Source: Streptomyces tailanensis (GTDB taxonomy: Bacteria > Actinomycetota > Actinomycetes > Streptomycetales > Streptomycetaceae). From it: DNA of 64,000 nt. A program made the translations under genes and the position numbers. The DNA lies in the NCBI RefSeq assembly GCF_008386495.1, contig NZ_VTHJ01000006.1, positions 1-64,000 on the forward strand, read 5' to 3'. This document shows, in pieces, positions 46,674-61,964 of this stretch (within the stretch, counting starts at the first letter, position 1; each line of letters starts with the position of its first letter). The notes below the pieces were generated by a model. It searched no databases, had not been told where the DNA came from, and saw only the letters and a program-made list of their open reading frames with translations.

Positions 46674-47699
46674 TCAGCGTGCCGAGAGGCTGGAGCGCCG
46701 TACCACCAGCTCCGGTTGGAGCACGACCCGCCGGTGCTCGTGCCGCTCGGGCGCGATCTCGGCCTCGGTCTCCTCCAGGAGCAGTTCGGCGGCGAGGGCC
46801 CCCATGGTGACCGCGGGCTGCCGTACGGAGGTGAGGGGGACGGCGGCCGCGGCGGCGAACTCGATGTCGTCGTAGCCGACGATGGCGAGGTCGTCCGGGA
46901 CGCTCACGCCGGCCGCGTACATGGCCTGGAGCACGCCGAGGGCGAGCAGGTCGTTGGCGCAGAAGACGGCGGTCGGGCGGTCGGCGAGGCCGAGGAGGCG
47001 GGCGCCCGCGTCACGGCCGGCGGCCACGTCGAGGCGCTCGGTGGGCAGTTCACGCAGGGCGCCCGGGCCGAGCCCCGCCTCCTGCAGGGCGTTCAGGGCG
47101 CCCGTACGGCGGTCGCGGACCTGGTTGAGACCCGCCGGTCCGCTGACGTACGCGATGGAGCGGTGGCCGGCGTCGACCAGATGCCGTACGGCGAGCGCGC
47201 CGCCCGCCACGTCGTCGACGGACACCGAGCACTCGGTGGTGCCCTCGGCGACCCGGTCGACGAGGACGAAGGGGATGCCGTGCCGGCGGAACGCATTGAT
47301 GTTGCGCCCGGTGGCGTCGGCGGGCGTGAGCAGGACGCCCCGCACCCGCTGCTCGGCGAAGAGCGCCAGATACTCGGACTCCTCGCCCGCGCTCTGCGCG
47401 CTGTTACAGACCATCACGCCGAGCCCGGCGTCACGCGCGGCCCGCTCGGCACCGCGCGCGACGTCGACGAAGAAGGGGTTGCCCATGTCGAGCACCAGCA
47501 GCCCCATGATGCGGCTGCGCCCCGCCCGCAGCTGGCGCGCCGACTCGCTGCGGACATAGCCGAGGCGGTCGATCGCGGCCAGCACACGGGCCCGGGTCCC
47601 GGAGGCCACCGAATCCGGCCGGTTGATGACGTTGGACACCGTGCCGACGGAGACTCCGGCGGCCGCGGCGACGTCCTTGATACCCACCGACTGCGACAT
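46674..47699 (-). CDS. LacI-family repressor of the rhamnose regulon
   Basis: A 341-residue LacI/GalR regulator. The N-terminal helix-turn-helix and hinge (VGIKDVAAAAGVSVGTVSNV ... SESARQLRAG) precede a sugar-binding-protein-like core. It is the last gene of the leftward rhamnose set, and near-identical operator sequences flank the divergent rha promoters, so it is the probable rhamnose repressor. Inducer (rhamnose or rhamnulose) is inferred. ATG 47699 has CTGGAGG upstream; ATG 47738 is a weaker alternative. Confidence 0.87.
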   Translation of the reverse strand: MSQSVGIKDVAAAAGVSVGTVSNVINRPDSVASGTRARVLAAIDRLGYVRSESARQLRAGRSRIMGLLVLDMGNPFFVDVARGAERAARDAGLGVMVCNSAQSAGEESEYLALFAEQRVRGVLLTPADATGRNINAFRRHGIPFVLVDRVAEGTTECSVSVDDVAGGALAVRHLVDAGHRSIAYVSGPAGLNQVRDRRTGALNALQEAGLGPGALRELPTERLDVAAGRDAGARLLGLADRPTAVFCANDLLALGVLQAMYAAGVSVPDDLAIVGYDDIEFAAAAAVPLTSVRQPAVTMGALAAELLLEETEAEIAPERHEHRRVVLQPELVVRRSSLSAR

Positions 47700-47813
47700 C
47701 GGAAGGGGACCTCCAGGAAGGTGCGGGACGGCGGGCATACGTTCACATTACCTGCGGGCCACACAGAAATGGCCCGGTCAGGTGCAGGAACGCACGTTCC
47801 CGTCGTACGGGGA

Positions 47814-49238
47814 TCAGGCGGGCAGTGCGAAGTCGATGACGCGGAGTGCGGACGGCGTCGTACCGGTGGACTTCACCTGGTACAAGACCGACAGGACATT
47901 GTCCTGGGCGATCCGCATCTCGTCGAAGACGACCTCACCGAAGGCGTTGAGCCCGGAGCCGTCGAACAGGATCCTCCAGTCGGTGTGTCCGGAGGCCGCC
48001 GAGGCACCGGCGATCCGGCCGAACGGGAAGATCGCGTAGGCGTTGTTGTACTTGTCCATGACCAGCTTGGTGCGCTGGCTGGAGTTCAGCGGCACCGGTA
48101 TCTCGGTCTTCGCCCAGGCGCCGGAGGAGCTCTTGCGGACGAGGAAGGCACGGCCGTTGGCCGTTCGGTCGGCGACGTAGCCCGTCGTGCACTGGCCGAA
48201 ACGGCCGGGGACGTAGCTGATGATGGCGTGCGGACGGCCGGCGGAGTCGGTCCACTGGCTTTCCTGGTTCATCAGCGAATGGTCCGGGTTGAGCGCGTCC
48301 ACGACGAGGCCCGCGTCGGTGACGGAGACCTTGTCGGAGCCGCCGGTGGTGCCGACGACGGCGCCCGCGTTGTTGCGCCAGGTGCGGCCCAGGTCGTCCG
48401 AGTAGACGTAGCCCGTGTCGTGGTTGGTGATGCCGCCGCCGTTGCACATCACGGCGCCGTTCTGCTCACGCCACGTGAACATGGCGTGCAGGCGCCCGTT
48501 GCGGTCGTAGTCGATGCCGTGCAGGTACATGTTGCGGGCCGTCGAGGAGCCGTGCTCGCTGGTGTACGTGCCGGTGGAGGACGTCCACTCGCCGAGGTTG
48601 GTCCAGGAGGTGCCGTTGTACTCGGCGATGGCGTTGCGGCCGTTGCCCGAGATGCCGGCGCGGTAGCTCAGCTGGAGCTTGCCGTCGGGCATCGAGATGA
48701 ACTGCGGGTACGTGAACTGCGAGGTGAGCGCGAGCCCGTCCAGGGTGGACTGCGGGGCGCCGAAGCGGCTCGTGGTCCAGCTCAGCCCGGCCGGGTTGTC
48801 CATCAGGCCGGCCACGGACTTGACGTAGGTGAAGCCGTCGCTGTGCGAGTCCATGTTGAGGTGCAGCCGGCCGTCGACCTTGGAGACGCCCATCGAGATG
48901 ACGTTGTGGGAGTCGTTGTAGCGCAGCGTGTGGCCGACCTTGACGGTGGACCAGGTGCTGGAGCCGAGGACGCGGCGGCCGACGACGGCGTTGCGGTCGG
49001 CGGTGTACCAGACGGCGTACTGGTAGCCCTTGTAGGTGAGCAGAGCGTTCTTCTGGAACGCGTTGTTGTTGACCAGGCCGTCGTACGACACGAAGAAGAT
49101 GGCCTGGCTGTCGAGCAGCGTGTTGCCGGTCTGGGTGACGGAGGGACCGGGGTCGGCGGCGCTGGCGGTGGCCGAGCCCAGGGCGGGGGTCACCACGGCA
49201 CCGGCGAGGGCGGCGCCCAGCAGCGTACGTCTCTTCAT
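47814..49238 (-). CDS. Secreted BNR_4-family enzyme, candidate rhamnosyl-glucuronate lyase
   Basis: A 474-residue protein with a signal peptide (KRRTLLGAALAGAVVTPALG, cleavage near ASA-A). It belongs to the BNR_4 propeller group (LLTYKGYQYAVWYTADRN, NDSHNVISMGVS, HLNMDSHSDGFTYV, FTYPQFISMPDGKLQLSYR). Some BNR_4 enzymes release rhamnose from rhamnosyl-glucuronate ends (L-rhamnose-alpha-1,4-D-glucuronate lyases). Location between the mutarotase and regulator genes of the rhamnose operon makes this the leading hypothesis. It is not proven; the Tyr/His pair needed for elimination cannot be assigned here. Confidence 0.8.
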   Translation of the reverse strand: MKRRTLLGAALAGAVVTPALGSATASAADPGPSVTQTGNTLLDSQAIFFVSYDGLVNNNAFQKNALLTYKGYQYAVWYTADRNAVVGRRVLGSSTWSTVKVGHTLRYNDSHNVISMGVSKVDGRLHLNMDSHSDGFTYVKSVAGLMDNPAGLSWTTSRFGAPQSTLDGLALTSQFTYPQFISMPDGKLQLSYRAGISGNGRNAIAEYNGTSWTNLGEWTSSTGTYTSEHGSSTARNMYLHGIDYDRNGRLHAMFTWREQNGAVMCNGGGITNHDTGYVYSDDLGRTWRNNAGAVVGTTGGSDKVSVTDAGLVVDALNPDHSLMNQESQWTDSAGRPHAIISYVPGRFGQCTTGYVADRTANGRAFLVRKSSSGAWAKTEIPVPLNSSQRTKLVMDKYNNAYAIFPFGRIAGASAASGHTDWRILFDGSGLNAFGEVVFDEMRIAQDNVLSVLYQVKSTGTTPSALRVIDFALPA

Positions 49239-49304: not shown

Positions 49305-49625
49305 TCAGGCGAGGTGGAAGACCTCGGTGAGGGGCATCATCGCCTCGTCGGGCCGGGCGCCGTCCAGCGACTCGAAGAACGGCGCCATCTCCTTCTGCCA
49401 GCGGGCGTTGACCTCGGCGGCCTCCATGCCGGCTTGCGCGGCCTGGAAGTCCTCGGTCTCCAGGTAGCCGACGAGCAGGCCGTCGTCGCGCAGGAAGAGG
49501 GAGTAGTTGTGCCAGCCGGTGGCCGAGAGCGCTTCGAGCATCTCCGGCCACACGGCGGCGTGCCGCTCGCGGTACTCGTCGATCCGGTCCTCACGGACCT
49601 TGAGCAGAAAACAGACGCGCTGCAT
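49305..49625 (-). CDS. rhaM: L-rhamnose mutarotase
   Basis: A 106-residue RhaM/RhaU protein of the dimeric ferredoxin-like fold (MQRVCFLLKVREDRIDEYRE, HAAVWPEM, SLFLRDDGLLVGYLETEDFQ). It interconverts alpha and beta anomers of L-rhamnose, supplying the form used by the isomerase. It lies 64 bases downstream of the binding-protein gene. Family length (about 104) matches. Confidence 0.92.
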   Translation of the reverse strand: MQRVCFLLKVREDRIDEYRERHAAVWPEMLEALSATGWHNYSLFLRDDGLLVGYLETEDFQAAQAGMEAAEVNARWQKEMAPFFESLDGARPDEAMMPLTEVFHLA

Positions 49626-49689: not shown

Positions 49690-50772
49690 CTAGAAGTCGA
49701 AGTCGTCGATGTTGTCCTTGTTGAAGACGGTCGGCTTGCCGAGGCTGATCACACCGTCCTTGCCGATGGTGTACTCGCCCATGTCACCGGCGGTGAAGGT
49801 CTCGCCCTCCTGGCCGGTGATCTGGCCGGAGACCAGCGCCACGGCCGTACGCGCGGCCAGCTCGCCGAGCTTCGACGGGTCCCACAGCTCGAACGCCTCG
49901 ACGGTGCCGTTCTTGACGTACTTGCGCATGTCGTTCGGGGTGCCGAGACCGGTCAGCTTGACCTTGCCCTTGTACTTGGAGCCCGAGAGGTACTGCGCGG
50001 CCGCCTTGATGCCGACCGTGGTCGGGGAGATGATCCCCTTCAGGTTCGGGTACTCCTGGAGCAGGCCCTGGGTCTGCTGGAAGGACTGCTGGGCGTCGTC
50101 GTTGCCGTACGCGACCTTGACGAGCTTGATGTCCTTGTACTTCGGGTCCTTCAGCTCGTCCTTCATGAAGTCGATCCAGATGTTCTGGTTCGTCGCGGTC
50201 TGCGCGGCCGACAGGATCGCGATCTCGCCCTTGTAGCCGATCTGCTCGGCGAGCAGCTGGACCTCGGTGCGGCCCAGGTCCTCGGCGCTGGCCTGCGAGA
50301 CGAAGGCGTTGCGGCACTCCGGCTTGGTGTCGGAGTCGTAGGTGACGACCTTGATGTCGTTGCTCATGGCCTGCTTGAGCGCGGTGCACAGGGCGCCCGG
50401 GTCCTGCGCGGACACGGCCATCGCGTCGACCTGCTGCTGGGTGAGCGTGTTGACGTAGGAGACCTGGCCGGAGGTGTCGGTGGCGCTGGAGGGGCCGACC
50501 TCCTTGTAGCTGGAGCCCAGCTCCTTCAGGGCCGCCTCGCCGCCCTTGTCGGCGGAGGTGAAGTACGGGTTGTTGACCTGCTTCGGCAGGAAGCCGACGG
50601 TCAGCCCCTTCTTCAGCTCGGCGTTCGGGTCGGCCTTACCGGTGGCGGCCGCCGAGGCGCCCTCGTCCTTGACGTCGCTCTTCGTCGTACCACCACAGGC
50701 GGTGACGGCGAGAGCGAACGAGGTGACGGCGGCGAGGGCCGCGCAGGAGCGGCGGAGGGTTGCCTTGCGCAT
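49690..50772 (-). CDS. rhaS: Rhamnose ABC transporter substrate-binding lipoprotein
   Basis: A 360-residue RhaS-type receptor. It has a lipoprotein signal (LAAVTSFALAVTAC), then the Peripla_BP_4 domain (VGFLPKQVNNPYFTSADKGG, GEIAILSAAQTATNQNIWID). Gene order and sequence match the Rhizobium leguminosarum RhaSTPQ transporter. It lies downstream of the permease gene across a dispersed repeat that may set a different expression level for the binding protein. Confidence 0.9.
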   Translation of the reverse strand: MRKATLRRSCAALAAVTSFALAVTACGGTTKSDVKDEGASAAATGKADPNAELKKGLTVGFLPKQVNNPYFTSADKGGEAALKELGSSYKEVGPSSATDTSGQVSYVNTLTQQQVDAMAVSAQDPGALCTALKQAMSNDIKVVTYDSDTKPECRNAFVSQASAEDLGRTEVQLLAEQIGYKGEIAILSAAQTATNQNIWIDFMKDELKDPKYKDIKLVKVAYGNDDAQQSFQQTQGLLQEYPNLKGIISPTTVGIKAAAQYLSGSKYKGKVKLTGLGTPNDMRKYVKNGTVEAFELWDPSKLGELAARTAVALVSGQITGQEGETFTAGDMGEYTIGKDGVISLGKPTVFNKDNIDDFDF

Positions 50773-50877: not shown

Positions 50878-51879
50878 TCAAGCGGTCTTCCCGGCGGAGC
50901 CAACCGCCGCTTTTCGACCGGCCCTCGCGACAGCGATCTGCCGCGCGACCCGGGGACCGAGAACCGAGACAACCAACAGGACGCCGGTGACGACGATCTG
51001 CGACTGCGCGGAGACATTGACGAGGCTCATCACGTTCTGCAGCGCACCGAGCAGGAAGACTCCCGCGATCGCGCCGCCCAACGTGCCCTTGCCGCCGTCG
51101 AAGTCGATACCACCGAGCAACACGGCGGCGACAACCGAGAGTTCGAGCCCGGTCGCGTTGTCGAAGCGGGCGCTGGCGTAGTGCAGGGCCCAGAAGATCC
51201 CGGTGAGGGAGGCCATGAGGCCGGTCACCGTGAACAGGATGAGCTTCTGCCGCTTGACCCGGATGCCGGCGAACCGCGCGGCCTCCTCGCTGGCGCCGAT
51301 CGCGTAGAGGGAGCGTCCGAAGGGGGTGAGGTGGAGGGCGATCACGGCGATGGCGAGCAGCACCAGGAAGGGGATGAAGGCCTGGGGGACGAAGGAGTCC
51401 CCGATGCGGCCGGCCGCGAAGTCCAGGTACTGGGTGGGGAAGTCGGTCACCGCGTCGGAGCCGAGCACGATCTGTGCGATGCCCCGGTAGGCGGCGAGGG
51501 TGCCGATGGTGACGGCGAGGGAGGGCAGGCCGAGCCGGGTGACCAGGAGACCGTTGATGAGGCCGCAGACCACGCCGAGCGCCAGACAGATCGGGATGAT
51601 CGTCTCGATGGTCATGCCCTGGTTCCACAGGGCGCCCATCACCGCGCCGGACAGTCCGGCCGTGGAGGCGACCGACAGGTCGATCTCGCCCGAGACCACC
51701 AGCAGGGTCATCGGCAGGGCGATTAGCGCGATCGGCAGGGTGTTGCCGATGAGGAACGACAGGTTGAGCGCGTTGCCGAAGCCGTCCACGGTGGTGAAGG
51801 ACAGCAGGAGCACGACGATCAGGAGGGCGCCGACGACCGTGTCCCAGCGAACCGCGCGCGACAGGGTGGAGTCAGCCAT
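50878..51879 (-). CDS. rhaQ: Rhamnose ABC transporter permease
   Basis: A 333-residue RbsC-like permease with 8-10 membrane segments (VVGALLIVVLLLSF, LVVSGEIDLSVASTAGLSG, ELSVVAAVLLGGIDFDGGKG). It overlaps the rhaP stop by 8 bases. Two different permeases in one operon imply a RhaP/RhaQ heterodimer, as in Rhizobium. Confidence 0.9.
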   Translation of the reverse strand: MADSTLSRAVRWDTVVGALLIVVLLLSFTTVDGFGNALNLSFLIGNTLPIALIALPMTLLVVSGEIDLSVASTAGLSGAVMGALWNQGMTIETIIPICLALGVVCGLINGLLVTRLGLPSLAVTIGTLAAYRGIAQIVLGSDAVTDFPTQYLDFAAGRIGDSFVPQAFIPFLVLLAIAVIALHLTPFGRSLYAIGASEEAARFAGIRVKRQKLILFTVTGLMASLTGIFWALHYASARFDNATGLELSVVAAVLLGGIDFDGGKGTLGGAIAGVFLLGALQNVMSLVNVSAQSQIVVTGVLLVVSVLGPRVARQIAVARAGRKAAVGSAGKTA

Positions 51880-52912
51880 GGCGGGCGTTCCTCTTCTTCA
51901 GTGCGGTCGCCACCCGCAGCGCGACCACACGGTCCACGGCGATGGCGAGGATGAGCAGGATGCCGTTGATCGCGAGCACCCAGACCGAGCTGACGCCGAG
52001 GGCGGGCAGCACGCTGTTGATGGAGGTCAGCAGCAGCGCGCCGAGCGCCGCGCCGTAGACGCTGCCGGAGCCACCGGTGAAGACGACACCGCCGACCACG
52101 ACCGCGCTGACGACGGTCAGTTCATAGCCGTTGCCGGTGCTGGAGTCGACGTTGCCGAAGCGCGCCAGGTACAGCGCTCCGGCGAGGCCGGCGAGGGCGC
52201 CGCAGAAGGTGTACGCCATCAGGATCCGCTTGCGGACCGGGATACCGGCGAGGCGGGCGGCCTCCGGGTTGGAGCCGAGCGCGTACAGCTCGCGTCCGCT
52301 GCCGAAGTGCTTCAGGTAGTACGCCGTCGCCACCAGCACCGCCACGGCGATCAGCGCCAGGTAGGGCACCGCGGAGATGCCGCCGGAGCCGAAGTCGACG
52401 AACCCGTCCGGGAGGCCGGAGGCGACGATCTGGCGGGAGCCGACCCAGATCGAGTCGATGCCCCGGATGATGTACAGCGTGCCGAGGGTGACCACGAGGG
52501 CGGGTACCTGGCCGAGGCTGACGAGCAGGCCGTTCAGCAGACCGAAGCCGATGCCGAGCAGGACCGCGAGGGCCACGGCCACGACCGCGTTGCCGCCGCC
52601 CTGGAGATACGTACCGGCGGCGAAGGCGCTGATGCCGAGGGTGGAGCCGACCGACAGGTCGACGTTCCGGGTGATGACGACGAGCGACTGGCCGACGGCG
52701 ACCAGCACCAGGATGGTCGCGTTGAGCAGCAGGTCCTTGATGCCCTGCTCGGTGAGGAACTCGCTGTTGCCGAGCTGGGTGACGACGATCATCACCAGGA
52801 AGACGGCCAGGATGGCGAGTTCACGCATCTTGAAGACGCGGTCCACCAGCCGGGTGCCGCTGGACTTGGGCACCTCGGCGACGGGAGTGTTCTGAGGGGT
52901 GGTCACCGTCAT
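51872..52912 (-). CDS. rhaP: Rhamnose ABC transporter permease
   Basis: A 346-residue RbsC-like permease with a short charged N-terminus before the first helix ([16 protein letters not shown]), the [16 protein letters not shown] motif and the [20 protein letters not shown] motif. ATG 52912 overlaps the rhaT stop (ATGA), so it is translationally coupled. The frame stays open upstream inside rhaT but has no ribosome-binding site there. Confidence 0.9.
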
Positions 52913-54426
52913 GCGGCGGCCCTCCCGGTGGCTGCGGCCATCACGGTTTCCTCGGTGGCTTCGGAGCGAGGGATCTCGGCGGTGAGCCGGCCCTCGTGCA
53001 TCACGAGCACGCGGTCGGCCATGCCGAGGATCTCGGGCAGGTCGGAGGAGATCATCAGAACGGCGACACCGTCGGCGGCGAGCTGGCTGAGCAGCCGGTG
53101 CACCTCGGCCTTCGTACCAACGTCGATGCCTCGGGTGGGCTCGTCGACGATCAGCACCTTGGGCCCGGTGGCGAGCCACTTGGCGAGGACGACCTTCTGC
53201 TGGTTCCCGCCGGACAGGGTGTTGACGGTGTCGGCGATCCGGGCGTACTTGACCTGGAGCTTGACCGCCCAGTCGAGGGAGCGGCTGCGTTCGGCGCCGC
53301 GGTCGACGAGGCCGGCCTTCACCGTCGTACGGAGTCCGGTGAGGCCGATGTTCCGCTCGATGGACATGTCCATCACCAGGCCCTGGGCGCGGCGGTCCTC
53401 TGGGACCAGGGCGAGCCCGGCGGCCATGGCGGTGGAAGGGGCGCCGTTGATGAGCGCCTTGCCGTCGATGTCGACCTCGCCCGCGTCCCAGCGGTCGATG
53501 CCGAAGACGGCCCGTGCCACCTCCGTACGGCCGGCGCCGACGAGCCCGGCGAGGCCGACGATCTCGCCGCGGCGGACGTCGAAGGAGACGTCGGTGAAGA
53601 CGCCCTCGCGGGTCAACCGGCGTACGCTCAGCGCGACTTCGCCCGGCTCGACCTCCTGCTTCGGGTAGAGCTCGTCGAGGTCGCGGCCGACCATGCGGCG
53701 GACGAGGTCGTCCTCGGTCATGCCGTCCAGGAGCTCGCTGGAGATCCAGGCGCCGTCCCGCAGGGTGGTCACCCGCTGGCAGATCTGGAAGATCTCCTCC
53801 AGCCGGTGGGAGATGAAGAGGACCGCCGAGCCCTGCTCGCGCAGGGTGCGGACGACGCCGAAGAGGCGGGCCACCTCGCTGCCGGTGAGGGCGGCGGTCG
53901 GCTCGTCCATGATGAGAACGCGGGCGTCGAAGGAGAGCGCCTTTGCGATCTCGACGATCTGCTGGTCCGCGATGGAGAGGCCGCGCGCGGGGCGGTCGGG
54001 GTCGAGTTCGACGCCGAGCCGCTGCATCAGGGCGAGGGTGGCCGCGTGCGTGGCCTTGTGGTCGATACGGCCGAGGGCGCGCCGGGGCTGTCGGCCCATG
54101 AAGATGTTCTCGGCGATCGACAGATCGGGGAAGAGCGTGGGCTCCTGGTAGATCACGGCGATGCCCGCGTCCCGGGCGTCGGCCGGACCGTGGAACACCG
54201 TGGGCTCACCATCGAGGAGCACCTGACCGGAGTCCGGTCGGTGCACCCCGGCGAGCGTCTTGATCAGGGTCGACTTGCCCGCGCCGTTCTCTCCGGCGAG
54301 GGCGTGCACCTCTCCGGGGAACAGTTCGAGGGACACGTCCCGCAGGGCGCGTACGGCGCCGAAGGACTTGGAGATGCCCTTCAACGCGAGGACGGGGGCC
54401 GGACCCTTGTCGGACCGGTGGGTCAT
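52909..54426 (-). CDS. rhaT: Rhamnose ABC transporter ATPase, double domain
   Basis: A 505-residue RhaT-type ATPase. The N-terminal domain has Walker [10 protein letters not shown], signature [16 protein letters not shown] and Walker B VLIMDEP. The C-terminal domain has a degenerate Walker A ([10 protein letters not shown]), signature LSGGNQQK and Walker B VLIVDEP. ATG 54426 is the first gene of the leftward operon, facing a divergent promoter region shared with rhaI. Confidence 0.93.
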
Positions 54427-54479: not shown

Positions 54480-54535
54480 TGAAAGGTTTCAACTTGGTTG
54501 CCGGGACGTTAGGCACCACACGCAGGTCACGTCAA
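54480..54535 (-). promoter_or_regulatory. Leftward rha promoter with LacI operator
   Basis: Read leftward, TTGACG (54535-54530) and TAACGT (54511-54506) are 18 bases apart. Downstream lies TGAAAGGTTTCA (54480-54491), a LacI-type palindrome matching the site at the rhaI promoter. Repression would block rhaT and the rest of the importer operon. Confidence 0.6.
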
Positions 54536-54608: not shown

Positions 54609-54657
54609 TTGACAGTTCGGCGAGTCACTCATAGTTTCCCGTCCTGAATCGTTTCAG
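54609..54657 (+). promoter_or_regulatory. rhaI promoter with LacI operator
   Basis: TTGACA (54609-54614) and TAGTTT (54632-54637) are 17 bases apart. CTGAATCGTTTCAG (54644-54657), with the central CG typical of LacI-family operators, lies at the start point. Its core TGAA(A/T)(C/G)GTTTCA is shared with the leftward operator. Confidence 0.65.
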
Positions 54658-54683: not shown

Positions 54684-55844
54684 GTGACCGAGCTCGCCGC
54701 GGTGAAGGCCGCCCTCAAGACACAGGCCATTGAGACGCCGTCGTGGGCGTACGGAAACTCGGGAACGCGCTTCAAGGTGTTCGCCCAGGCAGGCGTGCCG
54801 CGCAACCCGTGGGAGAAGCTCGACGACGCCGGCAAGGTGCACGAGTTCACCGGCGTCGCCCCGACCGTGGCGCTCCATATCCCCTGGGACAAGGTCGAGG
54901 ACTACGCGGCGCTCGCCAAGCACGCCGAGCAGCGTGGTGTGAAGCTGGGCGCCATCAACTCGAACACCTTCCAGGACGACGACTACAAGCTGGGCAGCAT
55001 CTGCCACCCGGACGCGGCGATCCGCCGCAAGGCCGTCGATCATCTGCTGGAGTGCGTCGACATCATGGACGCGACCGGGTCGCGGGACCTGAAGCTGTGG
55101 TTCGCGGACGGTACGAACTATCCCGGCCAGGACGACATCCGAGAGCGCCAGGACCGGCTCGCCGAAGGCCTCGCCGAGGTGTACGAGCGGCTCGGTGACG
55201 ACCAGCGCATGCTGCTGGAGTACAAGTTCTTCGAGCCGGCCTTCTACACGACCGATGTGCCGGACTGGGGCACCGCCTACGCCCACTGCCTCAAGCTCGG
55301 CCCCAAGGCGCAGGTCGTCGTCGACACCGGGCACCACGCGCCGGGCACCAACATCGAGTTCATCGTGGCGACGCTGCTGCGGGAGGGGAAGCTCGGGGCG
55401 TTCGACTTCAACTCTCGCTTCTACGCCGATGACGACCTGATGGTCGGGGCCGCCGATCCGTTCCAGTTGTTCCGGATCATGTACGAGGTGGTGCGTGGGG
55501 GTGGCTTCACTCCTGAGGTCGCGTTCATGCTCGACCAGTGCCACAACATCGAGGCGAAGATTCCGGCGATCATTCGGTCGGTGATGAATGTGCAGGAAGC
55601 CACGGCGAAGGCGCTGCTCGTGGACCGGGAGGCTCTTGCTGTTGCTCAGCGGGGCGGGGATGTGCTTGAGGCCAACGCCGTGCTGATGGACGCGTACAAC
55701 ACGGATGTGCGGCCGTTGCTTCGTGAGGTGCGGGAAGAGATGGGGTTGGACCCCGAGCCCATGAAGGCCTACCGCCGGTCCGGGTGGGCTTCGAAGATCG
55801 TTGATGAGCGGGTGGGAGGAGAGCAGGCGGGTTGGGGGGCCTGA
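54684..55844 (+). CDS. rhaI: L-rhamnose isomerase
   Basis: A 386-residue TIM-barrel isomerase of the Pseudomonas stutzeri RhaI type, not the E. coli RhaA type. Metal-site segments include LLEYKFFEPAFYTTDVPDWG, VVVDTGHHAPGTNIEF and FDFNSRFYADDDLMVG. It converts L-rhamnose to L-rhamnulose. GTG 54684 has AGGAG upstream. First gene of the rightward operon. Confidence 0.93.
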   Translation: MTELAAVKAALKTQAIETPSWAYGNSGTRFKVFAQAGVPRNPWEKLDDAGKVHEFTGVAPTVALHIPWDKVEDYAALAKHAEQRGVKLGAINSNTFQDDDYKLGSICHPDAAIRRKAVDHLLECVDIMDATGSRDLKLWFADGTNYPGQDDIRERQDRLAEGLAEVYERLGDDQRMLLEYKFFEPAFYTTDVPDWGTAYAHCLKLGPKAQVVVDTGHHAPGTNIEFIVATLLREGKLGAFDFNSRFYADDDLMVGAADPFQLFRIMYEVVRGGGFTPEVAFMLDQCHNIEAKIPAIIRSVMNVQEATAKALLVDREALAVAQRGGDVLEANAVLMDAYNTDVRPLLREVREEMGLDPEPMKAYRRSGWASKIVDERVGGEQAGWGA

Positions 55845-56004: not shown

Positions 56005-58044
56005 ATGGCAACCCATCCCGAAGCCGCCGCCCTTCTTGCTCGTTCCAATCGGCTCGGCGCCGATCCCCGTAACACCAACTACGCCGGCGGCAACACGTCC
56101 GCCAAGGGGACCGAGACGGACCCCGTCACCGGTGGTGACGTCGAGCTGATGTGGGTGAAGGGGTCCGGGGGTGACCTGGGCACGCTCACCGAGGCCGGGC
56201 TCGCCGTTCTGCGGCTGGACCGGATGCGGGCGCTCGTCGATGTGTACCCCGGGGTGGAGCGCGAGGACGAGATGGTCGCCGCGTTCGACTACTGCCTGCA
56301 TGGGAAGGGCGGGGCGGCGCCGTCGATCGACACCGCCATGCACGGTCTCGTGGACGCGGCGCACGTCGATCATCTGCACCCCGACTCCGGTATCGCACTG
56401 GCCTGTGCCGCCGACGGGGAGAAGCTGACCGCCGAGTGCTTCGGGGACAGTGTGGTGTGGGTGCCCTGGCGTCGGCCGGGCTTCCAGCTGGGGCTCGACA
56501 TCGCGGCCATCAAGGAGGCCAACCCGCAGGCCATCGGGTGCGTCCTCGGTGGGCACGGCATCACCGCCTGGGGTGACACCGCCGAGGAGTGCGAGAAGAA
56601 CTCGCTGCACATCATCCGTACCGCCGAGGCCTTCCTGGAAGAGAAGGGGAAGGTGGAGCCCTTCGGGCCCGTCATCAAGGGGTGCGAGGCGCTCGACGCC
56701 CCCGAGCGCCGGGAGCGGGCCGCCGCCCTCGCCCCGCACATCCGGGCCATCGCCTCGCAGGACAAGCCCCAGGTCGGGCACTTCAACGACTCCGAGGTCG
56801 TCCTGGACTTCCTGGCCGCCGCCGAGCACCCGCGGCTCGCCGCCCTCGGTACCTCCTGCCCCGACCACTTCCTCCGTACGAAGGTCCGGCCGCTCGTGCT
56901 CGACCTGCCGCCGACCGCCGACCTGGACTCGGCGATCGCCCGGCTGAAGGAGCTGCACGCCGAGTACCGCGAGGAGTACGCCGCCTACTACCAGCGGCAC
57001 GCCGAGCCCGACTCCCCCGCGATGCGCGGCGCCGACCCGGCGATCGTGCTGATCCCGGGTGTGGGCATGTTCAGCTTCGGCAAGGACAAGCAGACGGCCC
57101 GGGTCGCGGGTGAGTTCTACGTCAACGCGATCAATGTCATGCGGGGCGCCGAGGCGGTGTCGACGTACGCGCCGATCGAGGAGTCGGAGAAGTTCCGCAT
57201 CGAGTACTGGGCGCTGGAGGAGGCCAAGCTTCAGCGGATGCCCAAGCCGAAGCCGCTCGCCACGCGAGTCGCGCTCGTCACGGGTGCGGGTAGTGGGATC
57301 GGCAAGGCCATCGCGCATCGGCTGGTCGCCGAGGGTGCCTGTGTCGTCGTCGCCGATCTGAACGCCGAGAACGCCGCCGCCGTCGCCGAGGAACTGGGCG
57401 GGCCGGACAAGGCCGTCGCCGTGACCGTCGACGTGACGGACGAGGAGCAGATCGGCGCGGCCTTCAAGGCTGCCGCGCTGGCCTTCGGCGGGGTGGACCT
57501 GGTGGTCAACAACGCCGGTATCTCCATCTCCAAGCCGTTGCTGGAGACGTCCGCCAAGGACTGGGACCTTCAGCACGACATCATGGCCCGTGGCTCCTTC
57601 CTCGTGTCGCGGGAAGCGGCACGGGTGATGATCGCGCAGGGGCTGGGCGGCGACATCGTCTACATCGCCTCCAAGAACGCCGTCTTCGCCGGGCCGAACA
57701 ACATCGCGTACTCCGCCACCAAGGCCGACCAGGCGCACCAGGTGCGGCTGCTGGCCGCCGAGCTGGGTGAGCACGGCATCCGCGTCAACGGCGTCAACCC
57801 GGACGGTGTGGTGCGCGGCTCCGGGATCTTCGCGGCGGGCTGGGGTGCCCAGCGGGCTGCGACCTACGGGATCGAGGAGGAGAAGCTGGGCGAGTTCTAC
57901 GCGCAGCGGACCATCCTCAAGCGCGAGGTGCTGCCGGAGCACGTCGCCAACGCGGTGTTCGCGCTGACGGGCGGGGAGCTGACGCACACCACCGGTCTGC
58001 ACATCCCGGTCGACGCCGGCGTCGCCGCCGCCTTCCTGCGATGA
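56005..58044 (+). CDS. rhaEW: Bifunctional rhamnulose-1-phosphate aldolase / lactaldehyde dehydrogenase
   Basis: A 679-residue fusion. Residues ~1-400 are a class II aldolase domain (NTNYAGGNTSAKG, the zinc His pair in HVDHLHPDSG). Residues ~415-679 are a short-chain dehydrogenase (LVTGAGSGIGKAIA, YSATKAD with the catalytic YxxxK). The product matches B. subtilis RhaEW. It splits rhamnulose 1-phosphate to DHAP and L-lactaldehyde and oxidises the aldehyde to L-lactate. Overlaps the kinase gene by ATGA. Confidence 0.93.
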   Translation: MATHPEAAALLARSNRLGADPRNTNYAGGNTSAKGTETDPVTGGDVELMWVKGSGGDLGTLTEAGLAVLRLDRMRALVDVYPGVEREDEMVAAFDYCLHGKGGAAPSIDTAMHGLVDAAHVDHLHPDSGIALACAADGEKLTAECFGDSVVWVPWRRPGFQLGLDIAAIKEANPQAIGCVLGGHGITAWGDTAEECEKNSLHIIRTAEAFLEEKGKVEPFGPVIKGCEALDAPERRERAAALAPHIRAIASQDKPQVGHFNDSEVVLDFLAAAEHPRLAALGTSCPDHFLRTKVRPLVLDLPPTADLDSAIARLKELHAEYREEYAAYYQRHAEPDSPAMRGADPAIVLIPGVGMFSFGKDKQTARVAGEFYVNAINVMRGAEAVSTYAPIEESEKFRIEYWALEEAKLQRMPKPKPLATRVALVTGAGSGIGKAIAHRLVAEGACVVVADLNAENAAAVAEELGGPDKAVAVTVDVTDEEQIGAAFKAAALAFGGVDLVVNNAGISISKPLLETSAKDWDLQHDIMARGSFLVSREAARVMIAQGLGGDIVYIASKNAVFAGPNNIAYSATKADQAHQVRLLAAELGEHGIRVNGVNPDGVVRGSGIFAAGWGAQRAATYGIEEEKLGEFYAQRTILKREVLPEHVANAVFALTGGELTHTTGLHIPVDAGVAAAFLR

Positions 58045-59489
58045 GCGGGTCCGTGAAGTCGTACGCGGCGGTCGACCTGGGCGCGTCCAGTGGGCGGGTC
58101 ATGGTCGGCCGCGCGGGACGGGACTCGCTGGAGCTCGTCGAGGCGCACCGGTTCCCGAACCGGCCGGTGCGGACGCCCGAGGGACTGCGCTGGGACGTCC
58201 TCTCCCTGTACGCGGGGGTGCTCGACGGGCTGAAGGCGGCCGGGCAGGTCGACTCCGTCGGCATCGACAGCTGGGCCGTGGACTACGGCCTGCTGGACGC
58301 CGACGGGGCCCTGCTGGGCAACCCGGCGCACTACCGGGACACCCGGACCGAGGGTGTCGCGGAGAAGGTGTGGGCGACCGTGCCGGCCGCCGAGCTGTAC
58401 GCGGCGACCGGGTTGCAGTACGCGCCGTTCAACACGCTGTACCAGCTGGTCGCCGCCCGGTCGTCCGCGCAACTGGCGTACGCCAAGCGGTTGTTGCTCA
58501 TCCCGGATCTGCTGACGTACTGGCTCACGGGTGAGTTCGGGACGGAGTTGACGAACGCCTCGACGACGCAGCTGATCGATCCGCGCACGCGCGACTGGTC
58601 GTACGACGTGGCGGCGCGGCTCGGGATCGACCTGGAGCTGTTCGCGCCGCTGCGGCGGCCGGGCGATCCAGCGGGGTGGCTCCAGCAGCGGGTGCTGGAC
58701 GAGACCGGGCTGACCGGGCCGGTGCCGGTGACGACCGTCGGGTCGCACGACACCGCCTCCGCGGTGGCGGCCGTACCGGCCACCGGGGAGCGGTTCGCGT
58801 ACATCTGCACCGGCACCTGGTCCCTGGCGGGCCTGGAGCTGGACGCGCCGGTGCTGACCGAGGCGAGCCGGGCCGCCAACTTCACCAATGAGCTGGGGCT
58901 CGACGGCACCGTCCGCTATCTGCGGAACATCATGGGGCTGTGGCTGCTCCAGGAGTGCGTACGGGAGTGGGGTGACCCCGATCTCGGCGAGCTGCTGCGG
59001 GCCGCGGCGGGGGTGCCCGCGCTGCGGTCGGTCGTGGACGCGGGTGACGCGGCGTTCCTCGCGCCCGGGCGGATGCCCGAGCGGATCGCCGAGGCGTGCC
59101 GGGAGTCGGGGCAGCCGGTTCCCGGGACGCCCGCCGAGATCACCCGGTGCATCCTCGACTCGCTGGCGCTCGCCCACCGGCGGGCCGTCGCCGAGGCCCA
59201 GGCGCTCGCCGATCACCCCGTGGACGTCGTCCACATCGTCGGCGGCGGCACCCGCAACGCCCTGCTCTGCCAGCTCACCGCCGACGCCTGCGGGCTGCCG
59301 GTGGTGGCGGGTCCGGCGGAGGCGGCGGCCCTGGGCAACGTCCTCGTCCAGGCCCGGGCGCACGGAGTGGTGGGCGACCGCGCCTCCATGCGGCAGCTCC
59401 TCGCCCGTACCCAGCCGTTGGTGCGGTACGAGCCGCAGGGCGACCCTGCGGCCTGGCGCGCCGCGGAGGCCCGGCTCGCCGGGCGGTGA
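58041..59489 (+). CDS. rhaB: Rhamnulokinase
   Basis: A 482-residue FGGY-family kinase. The N-terminal phosphate loop is AAVDLGASSGRVMVG, with a conserved GSHDTASAV motif, and the C-terminal HIVGGGTRNALLCQLTADA binds ATP. It phosphorylates L-rhamnulose at C1 for the fusion aldolase, whose gene overlaps it. Order isomerase, aldolase/dehydrogenase, kinase completes the pathway. Confidence 0.92.
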   Translation: MSGSVKSYAAVDLGASSGRVMVGRAGRDSLELVEAHRFPNRPVRTPEGLRWDVLSLYAGVLDGLKAAGQVDSVGIDSWAVDYGLLDADGALLGNPAHYRDTRTEGVAEKVWATVPAAELYAATGLQYAPFNTLYQLVAARSSAQLAYAKRLLLIPDLLTYWLTGEFGTELTNASTTQLIDPRTRDWSYDVAARLGIDLELFAPLRRPGDPAGWLQQRVLDETGLTGPVPVTTVGSHDTASAVAAVPATGERFAYICTGTWSLAGLELDAPVLTEASRAANFTNELGLDGTVRYLRNIMGLWLLQECVREWGDPDLGELLRAAAGVPALRSVVDAGDAAFLAPGRMPERIAEACRESGQPVPGTPAEITRCILDSLALAHRRAVAEAQALADHPVDVVHIVGGGTRNALLCQLTADACGLPVVAGPAEAAALGNVLVQARAHGVVGDRASMRQLLARTQPLVRYEPQGDPAAWRAAEARLAGR

Positions 59490-59671: not shown

Positions 59672-60427
59672 ATGCGTGTCGCTCTGTTCCTGACCTGTGT
59701 CAACGACACGCTCTATCCGGATACCGGCCGCGCCGTGGTGAAACTGCTGACCAGGTTGGGTGTCGACGTCGACTTCCCGATGGGGCAGACCTGCTGCGGG
59801 CAGGCGCACTACAACACCGGGTACCGGCATGAGGCGGAGCCGCTGGCCCGGCAGTTCTCCGATGTCTTCAGGGAGTACGAGGCGATCGTGACGCCGTCCG
59901 GCTCCTGCGGGGCGATGGTGCGGGAGCTGTATCCCCGGATGGGTGAGCGGGCCCGGGCGGAGGGGCGCGGGGACACCCTGGCGCGGACGCTCGCGCCGGT
60001 CGTGCCGAAGACGTACGAGCTGACCGAGTTCCTGGTGGACGTGCTGGGTGTGACGGACGTGGGTGCGTACTATCCGCACACCGTGACCTACCACCCGACC
60101 TGCCACGGTCTGCGCGGCCTGGGGCTGGGGGAACGGCCACGCCGGCTCCTCCAGGCGGTCAAGGGACTCGAACTGCGCGAGCTGCCCGGCGCCGACGAGT
60201 GCTGCGGCTTCGGTGGCACGTTCGCCGTGAAGAACTCCGATGTCTCGGCGGCGATGGGTGCCGACAAGGTGCGCAACGCCGAGTCGACGGGCGCCGACGT
60301 GCTGTGCGCCGCCGACAACTCGTGTCTCATGCACATCGGCGGCACGATGACCCGGCTGCGGACCGGGATGCGTCCGGTCCACATCGCCGAGATCCTGGCG
60401 AGTACGGAAGAGGAGCCCCTGGGATGA
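59672..60427 (+). CDS. lutA: L-lactate oxidation Fe-S protein A
   Basis: A 251-residue LutA/GlcF-like protein. Two cysteine-rich CCG domains are clear: GQTCCGQAHYNTGY (near residue 40) and ADECCGFGGTFAVKN (near 180). LutA with LutB and LutC forms the membrane-associated L-lactate dehydrogenase complex of B. subtilis. First gene of the lut operon. ATG 59672 has GAGGAG upstream. Confidence 0.92.
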   Translation: MRVALFLTCVNDTLYPDTGRAVVKLLTRLGVDVDFPMGQTCCGQAHYNTGYRHEAEPLARQFSDVFREYEAIVTPSGSCGAMVRELYPRMGERARAEGRGDTLARTLAPVVPKTYELTEFLVDVLGVTDVGAYYPHTVTYHPTCHGLRGLGLGERPRRLLQAVKGLELRELPGADECCGFGGTFAVKNSDVSAAMGADKVRNAESTGADVLCAADNSCLMHIGGTMTRLRTGMRPVHIAEILASTEEEPLG

Positions 60428-60458: not shown

Positions 60459-61964
60459 ATGAGCGGGACCTTCGTCGGAATGCCGGCGTTCCCGAAGGCC
60501 GCGCACGAGGCCGTGCACAACACGACCCTGCGCGGCAATCTGCGCCACGCCACTCACACGATCCGCGGCAAACGCGCCAAGGCCGTCATGGAGATGTCGG
60601 ACTGGGCGGAACTGCGTGACGCCGGTAAGCGGATCAAGGACCACACCCTTCGTCATCTCGACCGGTACCTCGTGCAGCTGGAGGAGTCGGTCACCGCGGC
60701 CGGCGGCACCGTGCACTGGGCCGCCGACGCCGACGAGGCGAACCGGATCGTGACGTATCTCGTCAAGGCGACCGGTGAGAGCGAGGTCGTCAAGGTCAAG
60801 TCGATGGCGACGCAGGAGATCGGGCTCAACGAGGCGCTGGAGGCCGAGGACATCCACGCCTACGAGACGGATCTCGCCGAGCTCATCGTGCAGTTGGGCA
60901 AGGACCGGCCGTCGCACATCCTCGTCCCGGCGATCCACCGCAACCGGGGTGAGATCCGGGACATCTTCGCGCGCGAGATGAGCGAGTGGGGCCGCCCGGC
61001 TCCCGAGGGTCTGACCGACTCGCCCGCCGAGCTGGCGGAGGCCGCGCGGCTGCATCTGCGGGAGAAGTTCCTGCGCGCCAAGGTCGGGGTCTCCGGCGCC
61101 AACTTCATGGTCGCCGACACCGGCACGCTGGTGGTCGTGGAGTCCGAGGGCAACGGCCGGATGTGCCTCACCCTCCCCGAGACGCTCATCTCGGTCGTCG
61201 GCATCGAGAAGATCGTGCCGACGTGGCAGGACCTGGAGGTCTTCCTCCAGACCCTCCCCCGCTCCTCGACGGCCGAGCGGATGAACCCGTACACCTCGAC
61301 CTGGACGGGCACGACAGACTCCGAGACGGCTGACGGGCCGAGCACCTTCCATCTCGTCCTCATCGACAACGGCCGCACCGACACGCTCGCCGACGAGGTC
61401 GGCCGCCAGGCCCTGCGCTGCATCCGCTGCTCGGCATGTCTCAACGTCTGCCCGGTGTACGAGCGGGCGGGCGGCCACGCGTACGGCTCGGTCTACCCGG
61501 GCCCGATCGGCGCGATCCTCAGCCCCCAACTCCGGGGCACGGCAAGCGAGATCGACGCCTCGCTGCCGTACGCCTCGTCGCTGTGCGGCGCCTGCTACGA
61601 GGTGTGTCCGGTCGCCATCGACATCCCGGAGGTGCTGGTGCACCTGAGGGAGCGGGTCGCACAGGGCGGCCCGGCGACGGAGAAGGGCAACAAGGTCGTG
61701 CTCAAGCCCGCGAAGGGGCATGCCGCCGAGCGGGCGGCGATGCGCGCGGCACGCTGGGCGCTCAGCCACCCCGGCGCGCTGCGCACCGGGCAGCGGCTCG
61801 CGTCCCGCACCCGTCGCCTCCATCCGCGGACGCTGCCGGGCCCCGGCAAGGCGTGGAGCGCGAGCCGTGATCTGCCCGCGGTGCCCGCGGAGCCGTTCCG
61901 CGACTGGTGGCAGCGCACGAACGGCGGGCGTACGAACGGTGGCAAGCAGGAGGGTACGAAGTGA
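60459..61964 (+). CDS. lutB: L-lactate oxidation Fe-S protein B
   Basis: A 501-residue protein. The N-terminal ~300 residues form the LutB/YkgF domain (KVGVSGANFMVADTGTLVVV), and the C-terminal part has two 4Fe-4S motifs, CIRCSACLNVCPVYE and CGACYEVCPVAIDIP. It is the central electron-transfer subunit. ATG 60459 has GGGAGG upstream; the stop overlaps lutC (GTGA). Confidence 0.93.
   Translation: MSGTFVGMPAFPKAAHEAVHNTTLRGNLRHATHTIRGKRAKAVMEMSDWAELRDAGKRIKDHTLRHLDRYLVQLEESVTAAGGTVHWAADADEANRIVTYLVKATGESEVVKVKSMATQEIGLNEALEAEDIHAYETDLAELIVQLGKDRPSHILVPAIHRNRGEIRDIFAREMSEWGRPAPEGLTDSPAELAEAARLHLREKFLRAKVGVSGANFMVADTGTLVVVESEGNGRMCLTLPETLISVVGIEKIVPTWQDLEVFLQTLPRSSTAERMNPYTSTWTGTTDSETADGPSTFHLVLIDNGRTDTLADEVGRQALRCIRCSACLNVCPVYERAGGHAYGSVYPGPIGAILSPQLRGTASEIDASLPYASSLCGACYEVCPVAIDIPEVLVHLRERVAQGGPATEKGNKVVLKPAKGHAAERAAMRAARWALSHPGALRTGQRLASRTRRLHPRTLPGPGKAWSASRDLPAVPAEPFRDWWQRTNGGRTNGGKQEGTK

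Follow-up and report, generated by a model that had tools for sequence, protein, structure and literature searches.

The rhamnose locus and its putative lyase gene

The window analysed here, 64,000 nucleotides of Streptomyces tailanensis (contig NZ_VTHJ01000006.1, positions 1 to 64,000), carries a rhamnose locus with two divergent sets of genes. On the minus strand the order is rhaT, two permease genes, rhaS, rhaM, the gene studied here and a lacI-type gene, and divergently run rhaI, rhaEW, rhaB and genes of lactate oxidation. The ABC ATPase gene rhaT (52909..54426; PF00005, RbsA/AraG-like) is followed by two ABC permease genes with PF02653 matches, one (51872..52912; rhaP or rhaQ) starting by eye at an ATG that overlaps the rhaT stop and the other (50878..51879) being rhaQ or rhaP. 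The rhamnose substrate-binding protein RhaS (49690..50772) matches TIGR02637 above its cut-off with 490 bits. The L-rhamnose mutarotase gene rhaM (49305..49625) was recognized by PF05336 (E 3.1e-33) and stays under the TIGR02625 cut-off, and a LacI-family, RhaR-like regulator (46674..47738; PF00356, PF13377) closes the set. On the plus strand, the L-rhamnose isomerase gene rhaI (54684..55844; TIGR02635, 677 bits) and the gene of the rhamnulose-1-phosphate aldolase/dehydrogenase RhaEW (56005..58044; TIGR02632) both exceed their cut-offs. The rhamnulokinase gene rhaB (58041..59489) matches TIGR02627 with E 3.6e-142, its 474.1 bits lying below the cut-off of 527.95. Two genes for L-lactate oxidation follow, a LldE/LutA-like subunit (59672..60427) named partly by position, with NF045670 below cut-off, and the iron-sulfur protein LutB/LldF (60459..61964; TIGR00273 above cut-off, 448 bits).

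The gene at 47814..49238 on the minus strand encodes, from an ATG start, a product of 474 amino acids that matches the Pfam family BNR_4 (PF15892) with E 1.5e-80 and that we annotate as a putative secreted PL42-type rhamnose-glucuronate lyase. By eye, its N-terminus, KRRTLLGAALAGAVV...ATASA/A, looks like a twin-arginine export signal (residues 1-27; 49158..49238, minus strand). In an alignment of 40 orthologues, R3 and R4 are each conserved to 90% or more, and a twin-arginine motif is also present in two unlinked homologues (DRRTFLRG and DRRSVIQS). The product thus agrees with the exported BNR propeller of the original prediction. Comparison with 8 of 80 orthologues gave dN/dS values of 0.11-0.38, which indicates that the gene is under purifying selection and no chance open reading frame.

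Family, fold and active site

A phmmer search of PDB sequences placed FoRham1 nearest (7esl, 7esk and 7esn, E 3e-28 to 3e-26, the best being 3.4e-28), followed by BT3686 (E 2.2e-18) and other former GH145 proteins down to 1e-14. The PL24 ulvan lyase Uly1 gave a marginal E of 0.018, and PL25 had no entry up to E 10. An AlphaFold model was built from 40 aligned sequences, 39 of the 80 orthologues among them, and reached a mean pLDDT of 75.5 and a pTM of 0.79. Structural modelling had been proposed as a check on the assignment, and the model matched FoRham1 best (7esk_A; Z 37.5, 392 residues, rmsd 2.9). Together with PF15892, this match identifies the seven-bladed BNR_4-type β-propeller of PL42. 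The former GH145 structures came close behind with Z 35-36, whereas the PL24 and PL25 ulvan lyases reached about 27; the fold alone scarcely distinguishes FoRham1 from GH145 (Z 37.5 versus 36.0). A reading as sialidase, prompted by the "neuraminidase" label of 5muk and 4irt, was rejected: in the fold search, true sialidases reached a best E of about 5e-9 versus 9e-26 for PL42.

The distinction comes from the active site. The FoRham1 numbering could be fixed because all 13 published residues were identical at one offset, and 12 of these 13 are retained in the S. tailanensis protein: D83, H85, H105, Y150, R166, S170, Y202, R220, N275, Q276, R331 and E381, which by alignment correspond to D109, H111, H132, Y177, R193, S197, Y238, R257, N324, Q325, R389 and E435. 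The His-His-Asp triad (FoRham1 D83/H85/H105) is therefore complete, as are the equivalents of Arg166, Tyr150 and Tyr202. Four of five residues of the rhamnose site are kept (N275, Q276, R331, E381), and the fifth, Tyr26, which contacts rhamnose O3, is replaced by Phe61; BT3686 has phenylalanine at this position as well. In addition, Pro223, a main-chain contact of the glucuronate, is Asn260. We aligned homologues in 113 rows after leaving out 17 loci that came from the S. tailanensis genome or duplicated a sequence. The rows include three pseudogene fragments, a copy cut by a contig end (L141) and one at a contig edge whose linkage is invisible (L107). Nine residues (D83, H85, H105, R166, Y202, R220, N275, R331, E381) showed zero substitutions wherever a letter was present, and Y150, S170 and Q276 showed one each. 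According to the mutant data in two reports on FoRham1, substitution at several such positions removes most or all of the activity (PMC8377490, PMC10951650).

Rhamnose could also be released by hydrolysis, as in the GH145-type α-L-rhamnosidase BT3686, which cleaves Rha-GlcA at a posterior site. In BT3686, this hydrolysis requires His48, and GH145 enzymes without this histidine have no rhamnosidase activity on gum arabic arabinogalactan protein (AGP), as stated in the relevant section of PMC8406133. The same section reports that the anterior lyase site of Bacteroides members without His48 works on wine AGP and not on gum arabic AGP. The residue equivalent to His48 is Tyr69 in the S. tailanensis protein, which accordingly lacks the posterior catalytic histidine of GH145. 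Tyrosine also prevails among the 113 rows (94), next to histidine in 15, S. scabiei (L010) among them, cysteine in one and a gap in three. While this position varies, the nine lyase residues do not, so that the lyase site is the constrained one. Even though the protein matches the NCBIfam model AlphRhmnaseBT3686 with E 6.4e-33 (113.9 bits versus a cut-off of 700) and some relatives carry the histidine, we consider it very unlikely that this product acts as a BT3686-like hydrolase, and with Tyr69 in place of His48 the GH145 identity was dropped. Instead, the gene product reads as a β-eliminating lyase rather than a rhamnosidase, and its predicted activity is directed at Rha-α-1,4-GlcA. The original prediction of an enzyme that releases rhamnose from Rha-GlcA ends holds, judged by sequence, for the type of enzyme; the mode of release has to be corrected, since a conserved lyase site combined with Tyr69 leads us to expect β-elimination.

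Two inserts of the S. tailanensis protein lack a counterpart in FoRham1, and each contains one cysteine, C265 (in 106 of the 113 rows) and C350 (in 110). Three copies outside the rha locus have equivalents of both cysteines. Counted from the Arg220 equivalent, C265 lies eight residues further on, and both inserts have low confidence in the AlphaFold model. The inserts may make up a rim close to the +1 side, held together by a disulphide.

Streptomyces also has a second class of BNR_4 proteins (L149-L155, seven rows; E between about 1e-20 and 1e-36), in which, among other changes, Asp83 is replaced by Asn and Asn275 by Ala. No rhaI, rhaM or RhaEW match was found in the stretches fetched around these genes.

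Conservation of the gene neighbourhood

For comparison of the neighbourhood we used the best 80 of 144 related stretches, 79 of them titled Streptomyces and one "Actinobacteria bacterium"; the nearest belong to S. caniscabiei, S. adelaidensis and S. stelliscabiei. The LacI gene adjoins the lyase gene in all 80 loci. The arrangement given in the original prediction, with the gene between rhaM and the lacI regulator on one strand, applies to our window and recurs as rhaM-lyase-LacI neighbours in 79 of the 80, the exception (L063) having the lyase and LacI genes without rhaM or transporter. The placement beside rhaM and lacI is no accident.

Across 199 Streptomyces genomes, the BNR_4 class (E 1e-60 or better) comprises 69 copies in 68 genomes. 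Of these 68, 66 contain rhaI, compared with 127 of 199 overall (Fisher p 2e-14, kinship ignored), and 61 of the 69 copies lie at most 15 kb from rhaI. The eight copies not placed near rhaI are a paralogue in genome G099, a copy between rhaM and LacI (G144, locus L102), one at a contig edge (G050) and five that were inspected. Of these five, two have rhaM and LacI on either side close to a contig end, one adjoins rhaM and is broken, and two lie elsewhere (G186 and G120), the 14.6 and 15 kb seen around them being free of rha genes. A phylum-wide protein search, which may have missed distant relatives, found the lyase in 6 of 396 genomes including S. tailanensis, all of one genus.

Candidate operators and the predicted regulon

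Two candidate operators, both listed on the minus strand, lie between rhaT and rhaI: TGAAACCTTTCA at 54480..54491, 53 nt before rhaT, and TGAAACGATTCA at 54645..54656, 27 nt before rhaI. The rhaT-rhaI spacers of 77 loci contained 77 TGAAACCTTTCA sites together with 73 TGAAACGATTCA and 4 TGAATCGATTCA sites. Sites of the pattern TGAANNNNTTCA numbered 159 in 1.65 Mb of loci, 156 of them inside this spacer, and there were none in four other spacers (78, 79, 79 and 80 loci). An operator of the lyase gene's own was found neither between rhaM and the lyase gene (79 loci) nor between the lyase gene and LacI (80 loci). A half-site before rhaS (50857) was conserved in 0 of 78 loci, and a scan for promoters and terminators gave nothing above chance. 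We assume that the lyase gene is co-transcribed with the rha genes. The locus has the features of a RhaR regulon, namely a LacI gene next to the rha genes and palindromic operators before the target operons, and the LacI-type protein is predicted from these sites to bind the candidate operators.

The 12-mer TGAAACSWTTCA occurs at five sites in the 10-Mb draft genome of S. tailanensis and its reversed control pattern at none. Two of the five are the rhaT-rhaI pair, one lies 26 nt before a gene for a GH78 protein and another 18 nt before one for GH106 (both with twin-arginine N-termini by eye), and the fifth precedes, by 34 nt, the gene of an ABC sugar-binding protein with a permease gene after it (L168:5170-11000). 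RhaR probably also controls these unlinked GH78 and GH106 rhamnosidases and the ABC oligosaccharide transporter. A PcRGLX-like gene, which we take to be of the exo-rhamnogalacturonan lyase type, starts about 4 kb past the operator site of the transporter, and the two are perhaps a pectin arm of the same regulon. In 14 more rha-bearing genomes, where the reversed control again gave 0, we inspected 21 sites outside the rha locus. Thirteen stood no more than about 60 nt from the start of the ABC binding protein seen in S. tailanensis (the match in L174 covering 103 residues only), two preceded GH106 and four preceded GH78-type genes (L185 recognized by tblastn only, the other three by Pfam); of the last two, one adjoined a different sugar transporter that has a LacI gene of its own and one was near a transposase. 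A result that speaks against this regulon came from 14 genomes without a rhaI match: the pattern was present in four of them (6 sites), and the reversed control equally gave 6.

The two lyase copies in unrelated gene surroundings (G186 and G120) are 64% and 61% identical to the S. tailanensis protein and keep the active-site residues. Both have an operator-like site before their start, TGAAACCTTTCA at 34 nt (L195:11446-11457) and TGAATCCATTCA at 26 nt (L197:2039-2050), respectively. The first has exactly the sequence of the rhaT operator; the other matches TGAANNNNTTCA but falls outside the stricter pattern. Such sites speak for the lyase being part of the rhamnose regulon wherever it is placed. 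Tied to the rha operon by position and common operators, the lyase plausibly supplies the imported rhamnose, as had been suggested from its position.

Presence, loss and selection

The lyase class is absent from 61 of the 127 rhaI-bearing Streptomyces genomes. The rha operon hence works without the lyase too, and the gene is accessory. Among 20 loci without the lyase, hand-picked from the table of rhaI-bearing genomes, rhaM is next to LacI in 14 and rhaS is next to LacI in five, where rhaM was not found; one shows neither arrangement. Three of the 20 (L120, L129, L131) contain lyase pseudogene remnants in the rhaM-LacI gap, which suggests that the gene was apparently lost more than once. A further fragment match in L132 spans 39 bases at E 0.001 and may be due to chance. 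Broken lyase copies are also present in other genomes.

The opposite case exists as well: in L063 and L138-L141 the transporter RhaSTPQ is lost or truncated while the lyase gene and both operators are kept, the gene of L141 being truncated by the end of its contig. No RhaS above the cut-off was found anywhere in genomes G101 and G181, and G073 has one elsewhere. The link between the lyase and RhaSTPQ is therefore not strict. The frequent absence of the gene, the remnants and the broken copies are what would be expected if the gene were a passenger or in decay and its location meant nothing for its function. We find this hardly credible given the dN/dS of 0.11-0.38 in all eight comparisons, the invariant active site, the retention of the lyase despite transporter loss and the operator-like sites of the two copies off the rha locus.

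Clues to the substrate

The second lyase copy of G099 (L148:7880-18209) is 56% identical and lies directly downstream of a GH30 gene whose nearest solved relative is the secreted endo-β-1,6-galactanase 24td (E 4.4e-217). Close to it are a PL9-like gene, a regulator gene and a GH43 gene with CBM6/CBM35-type modules. The catalytic part of this GH43 protein has matches to 3vsf (E 7e-21; its deposited name is "ricin B lectin", and it is presumably an exo-β-1,3-galactanase) and to chains named β-glucanase (6euf, 6e-17), galactan 1,3-β-galactosidase (7bys, 5e-14) and exo-β-1,3-galactanase (5flw, 5e-10). For a PD40-type neighbour no solved relative was found. L148 is probably an arabinogalactan locus, and the position of the paralogue beside an endo-β-1,6-galactanase-like gene ties the lyase clade to type II arabinogalactan, even if this arrangement is a single case among 392 genomes. 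S. tailanensis itself has GH30 matches at L170 (24td, E 8e-43) and L171, which suggests a capacity for arabinogalactan. No operator of the searched pattern was found at these two GH30 genes, and the GH43 protein of L171 matches xylosidase/arabinosidase-like chains best. A GH88/GH105 enzyme (PF07470) that would remove unsaturated glucuronate had no match in the S. tailanensis genome.

We considered a lyase acting on other than ordinary arabinogalactan, either a sulphated Rha-GlcA polymer comparable to ulvan or wine AGP or a bacterial exopolysaccharide with rhamnosyl-glucuronate ends. This would agree with the His-His-Asp motif, which is common to PL24 and PL25 ulvan lyases according to the structural part of PMC10951650, with the fold similarity to them (Z about 27) and with the phenylalanine that the protein shares at the Tyr26 position with BT3686, whose lyase site cleaves wine AGP. 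Since Bacteroides lyases cleave wine AGP and not gum arabic AGP, the substrate may indeed differ from gum arabic. However, in sequence the protein resembles PL24 only marginally (Uly1, E 0.018), the unlinked paralogue adjoins a β-1,6-galactanase-like gene, and scab-group Streptomyces, which are plant-associated, are among the closest genomes in the best 80 of 144, so that we regard a sulphated or bacterial polymer as improbable. In nature the enzyme most likely acts on the Rha-GlcA caps carried by the side chains of type II arabinogalactan.

A diverged lineage of rha loci (L142-L147) has permeases that are only 54-57% identical, and four of these six loci contain a pair of LacI genes. The large gene adjoining rhaI encodes a GH78 rhamnosidase in all three loci tested (L142, L144, L147), and rhamnose release thus appears coupled to catabolism there too.

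Discussion

Overall, we consider it likely that the gene encodes a secreted PL42-type L-rhamnose-α-1,4-D-glucuronate lyase that feeds RhaR-controlled uptake and catabolism of rhamnose, with arabinogalactan caps as the likely substrate. In the proposed mechanism, Arg193, His132 and Tyr177 on the anterior face of the propeller would neutralize the glucuronate carboxylate, and His111, held by Asp109, would take the proton from C5 of the glucuronate and then protonate the glycosidic oxygen. The terminal rhamnose would depart, leaving a 4,5-unsaturated glucuronate on the polymer. The freed L-rhamnose would be taken up by RhaSTPQ and catabolized by RhaM, RhaI, RhaB and RhaEW, onward through lactate, under repression of the rha set by the LacI-type RhaR acting through the operators between rhaT and rhaI.

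The original prediction went further and saw the substrate of the operon in a plant exudate rather than free sugar. This is too narrow, as RhaS is the binding protein of a rhamnose transporter, the same operator precedes GH78, GH106 and a second sugar transporter, and 61 of 127 rhaI genomes lack the lyase. If correct, the proposed function would suggest a simple rule for Streptomyces, by which a single repressor links the breakdown of rhamnose to its release from several polymers. A more speculative idea, which we think rather unlikely, is that the bacterium takes nothing but the rhamnose caps from plant AGPs. The RhaR-controlled lyase would then leave an unsaturated uronate, unremovable in this genome via the usual GH88/GH105 route, on an otherwise intact polymer, and a plant surface glycan would be edited rather than digested. 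This idea adds that the posterior site may be gained and lost among close orthologues by the Tyr/His change at one position. The enzyme could also serve as a bacterial tool for trimming arabinogalactan proteins.

The PL42 family and a LacI-type RhaR regulon with rhamnosidases and a transporter were known before, and the protein described here looks like a further member of this family in an unusual setting. According to a 2013 study, in the portion relevant here, the RhaR regulon of Actinomycetales includes the putative rhamnosidases ramA and rhmA, the ABC transporter rhiLFG, RhaEW and lactate dehydrogenase genes (PMC3870299). The S. tailanensis locus resembles it in the LacI regulator beside the rha genes and the palindromic operators, and the terms "bnr" and "gum" have 0 occurrences in the main text of that paper. 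PL42 or GH145 genes appear in gene lists of other Streptomyces genomes (PMC11475409, PMC11163044), and, judged by titles and the openings of abstracts, none of the open-licence papers among the matches listed describes a rhamnose operon of Streptomyces that contains a PL42 enzyme. If our assignment is right, a family characterized, in the sources cited here, from Fusarium and Bacteroidota such as Bacteroides enters a sugar regulon of soil actinobacteria.

Among characterized enzymes, FoRham1 of Fusarium oxysporum (PL42; 7ESK, 7ESL, 7ESN) is the closest relative. It shares the BNR_4 propeller and 12 of 13 active-site residues, is the best match in sequence and fold and, too, has tyrosine where GH145 has the posterior histidine. 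The identity in structure alignments is 24-29%, Tyr26 is replaced by Phe61, and the S. tailanensis protein differs further in its two cysteine inserts (C265, C350), its bacterial origin and its place inside a rhamnose operon. The PL24 and PL25 ulvan lyases share the propeller fold and the His-His-Asp motif but are more distant in fold (Z about 27 versus 37) and in sequence, with E 0.018 for PL24 and no match up to E 10 for PL25. BT3686 and the other former GH145 enzymes of Bacteroides, now in PL42, have the conserved anterior site in common with our protein, and BT3686 also the phenylalanine at the Tyr26 position. As described in part of PMC8406133, these enzymes release rhamnose from AGP, and the B. 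plebeius copy lies in a utilization locus with GH105, whereas the S. tailanensis genome has no PF07470 match. BT3686 differs in having a second, posterior hydrolase site with His48, where the S. tailanensis protein carries Tyr69.
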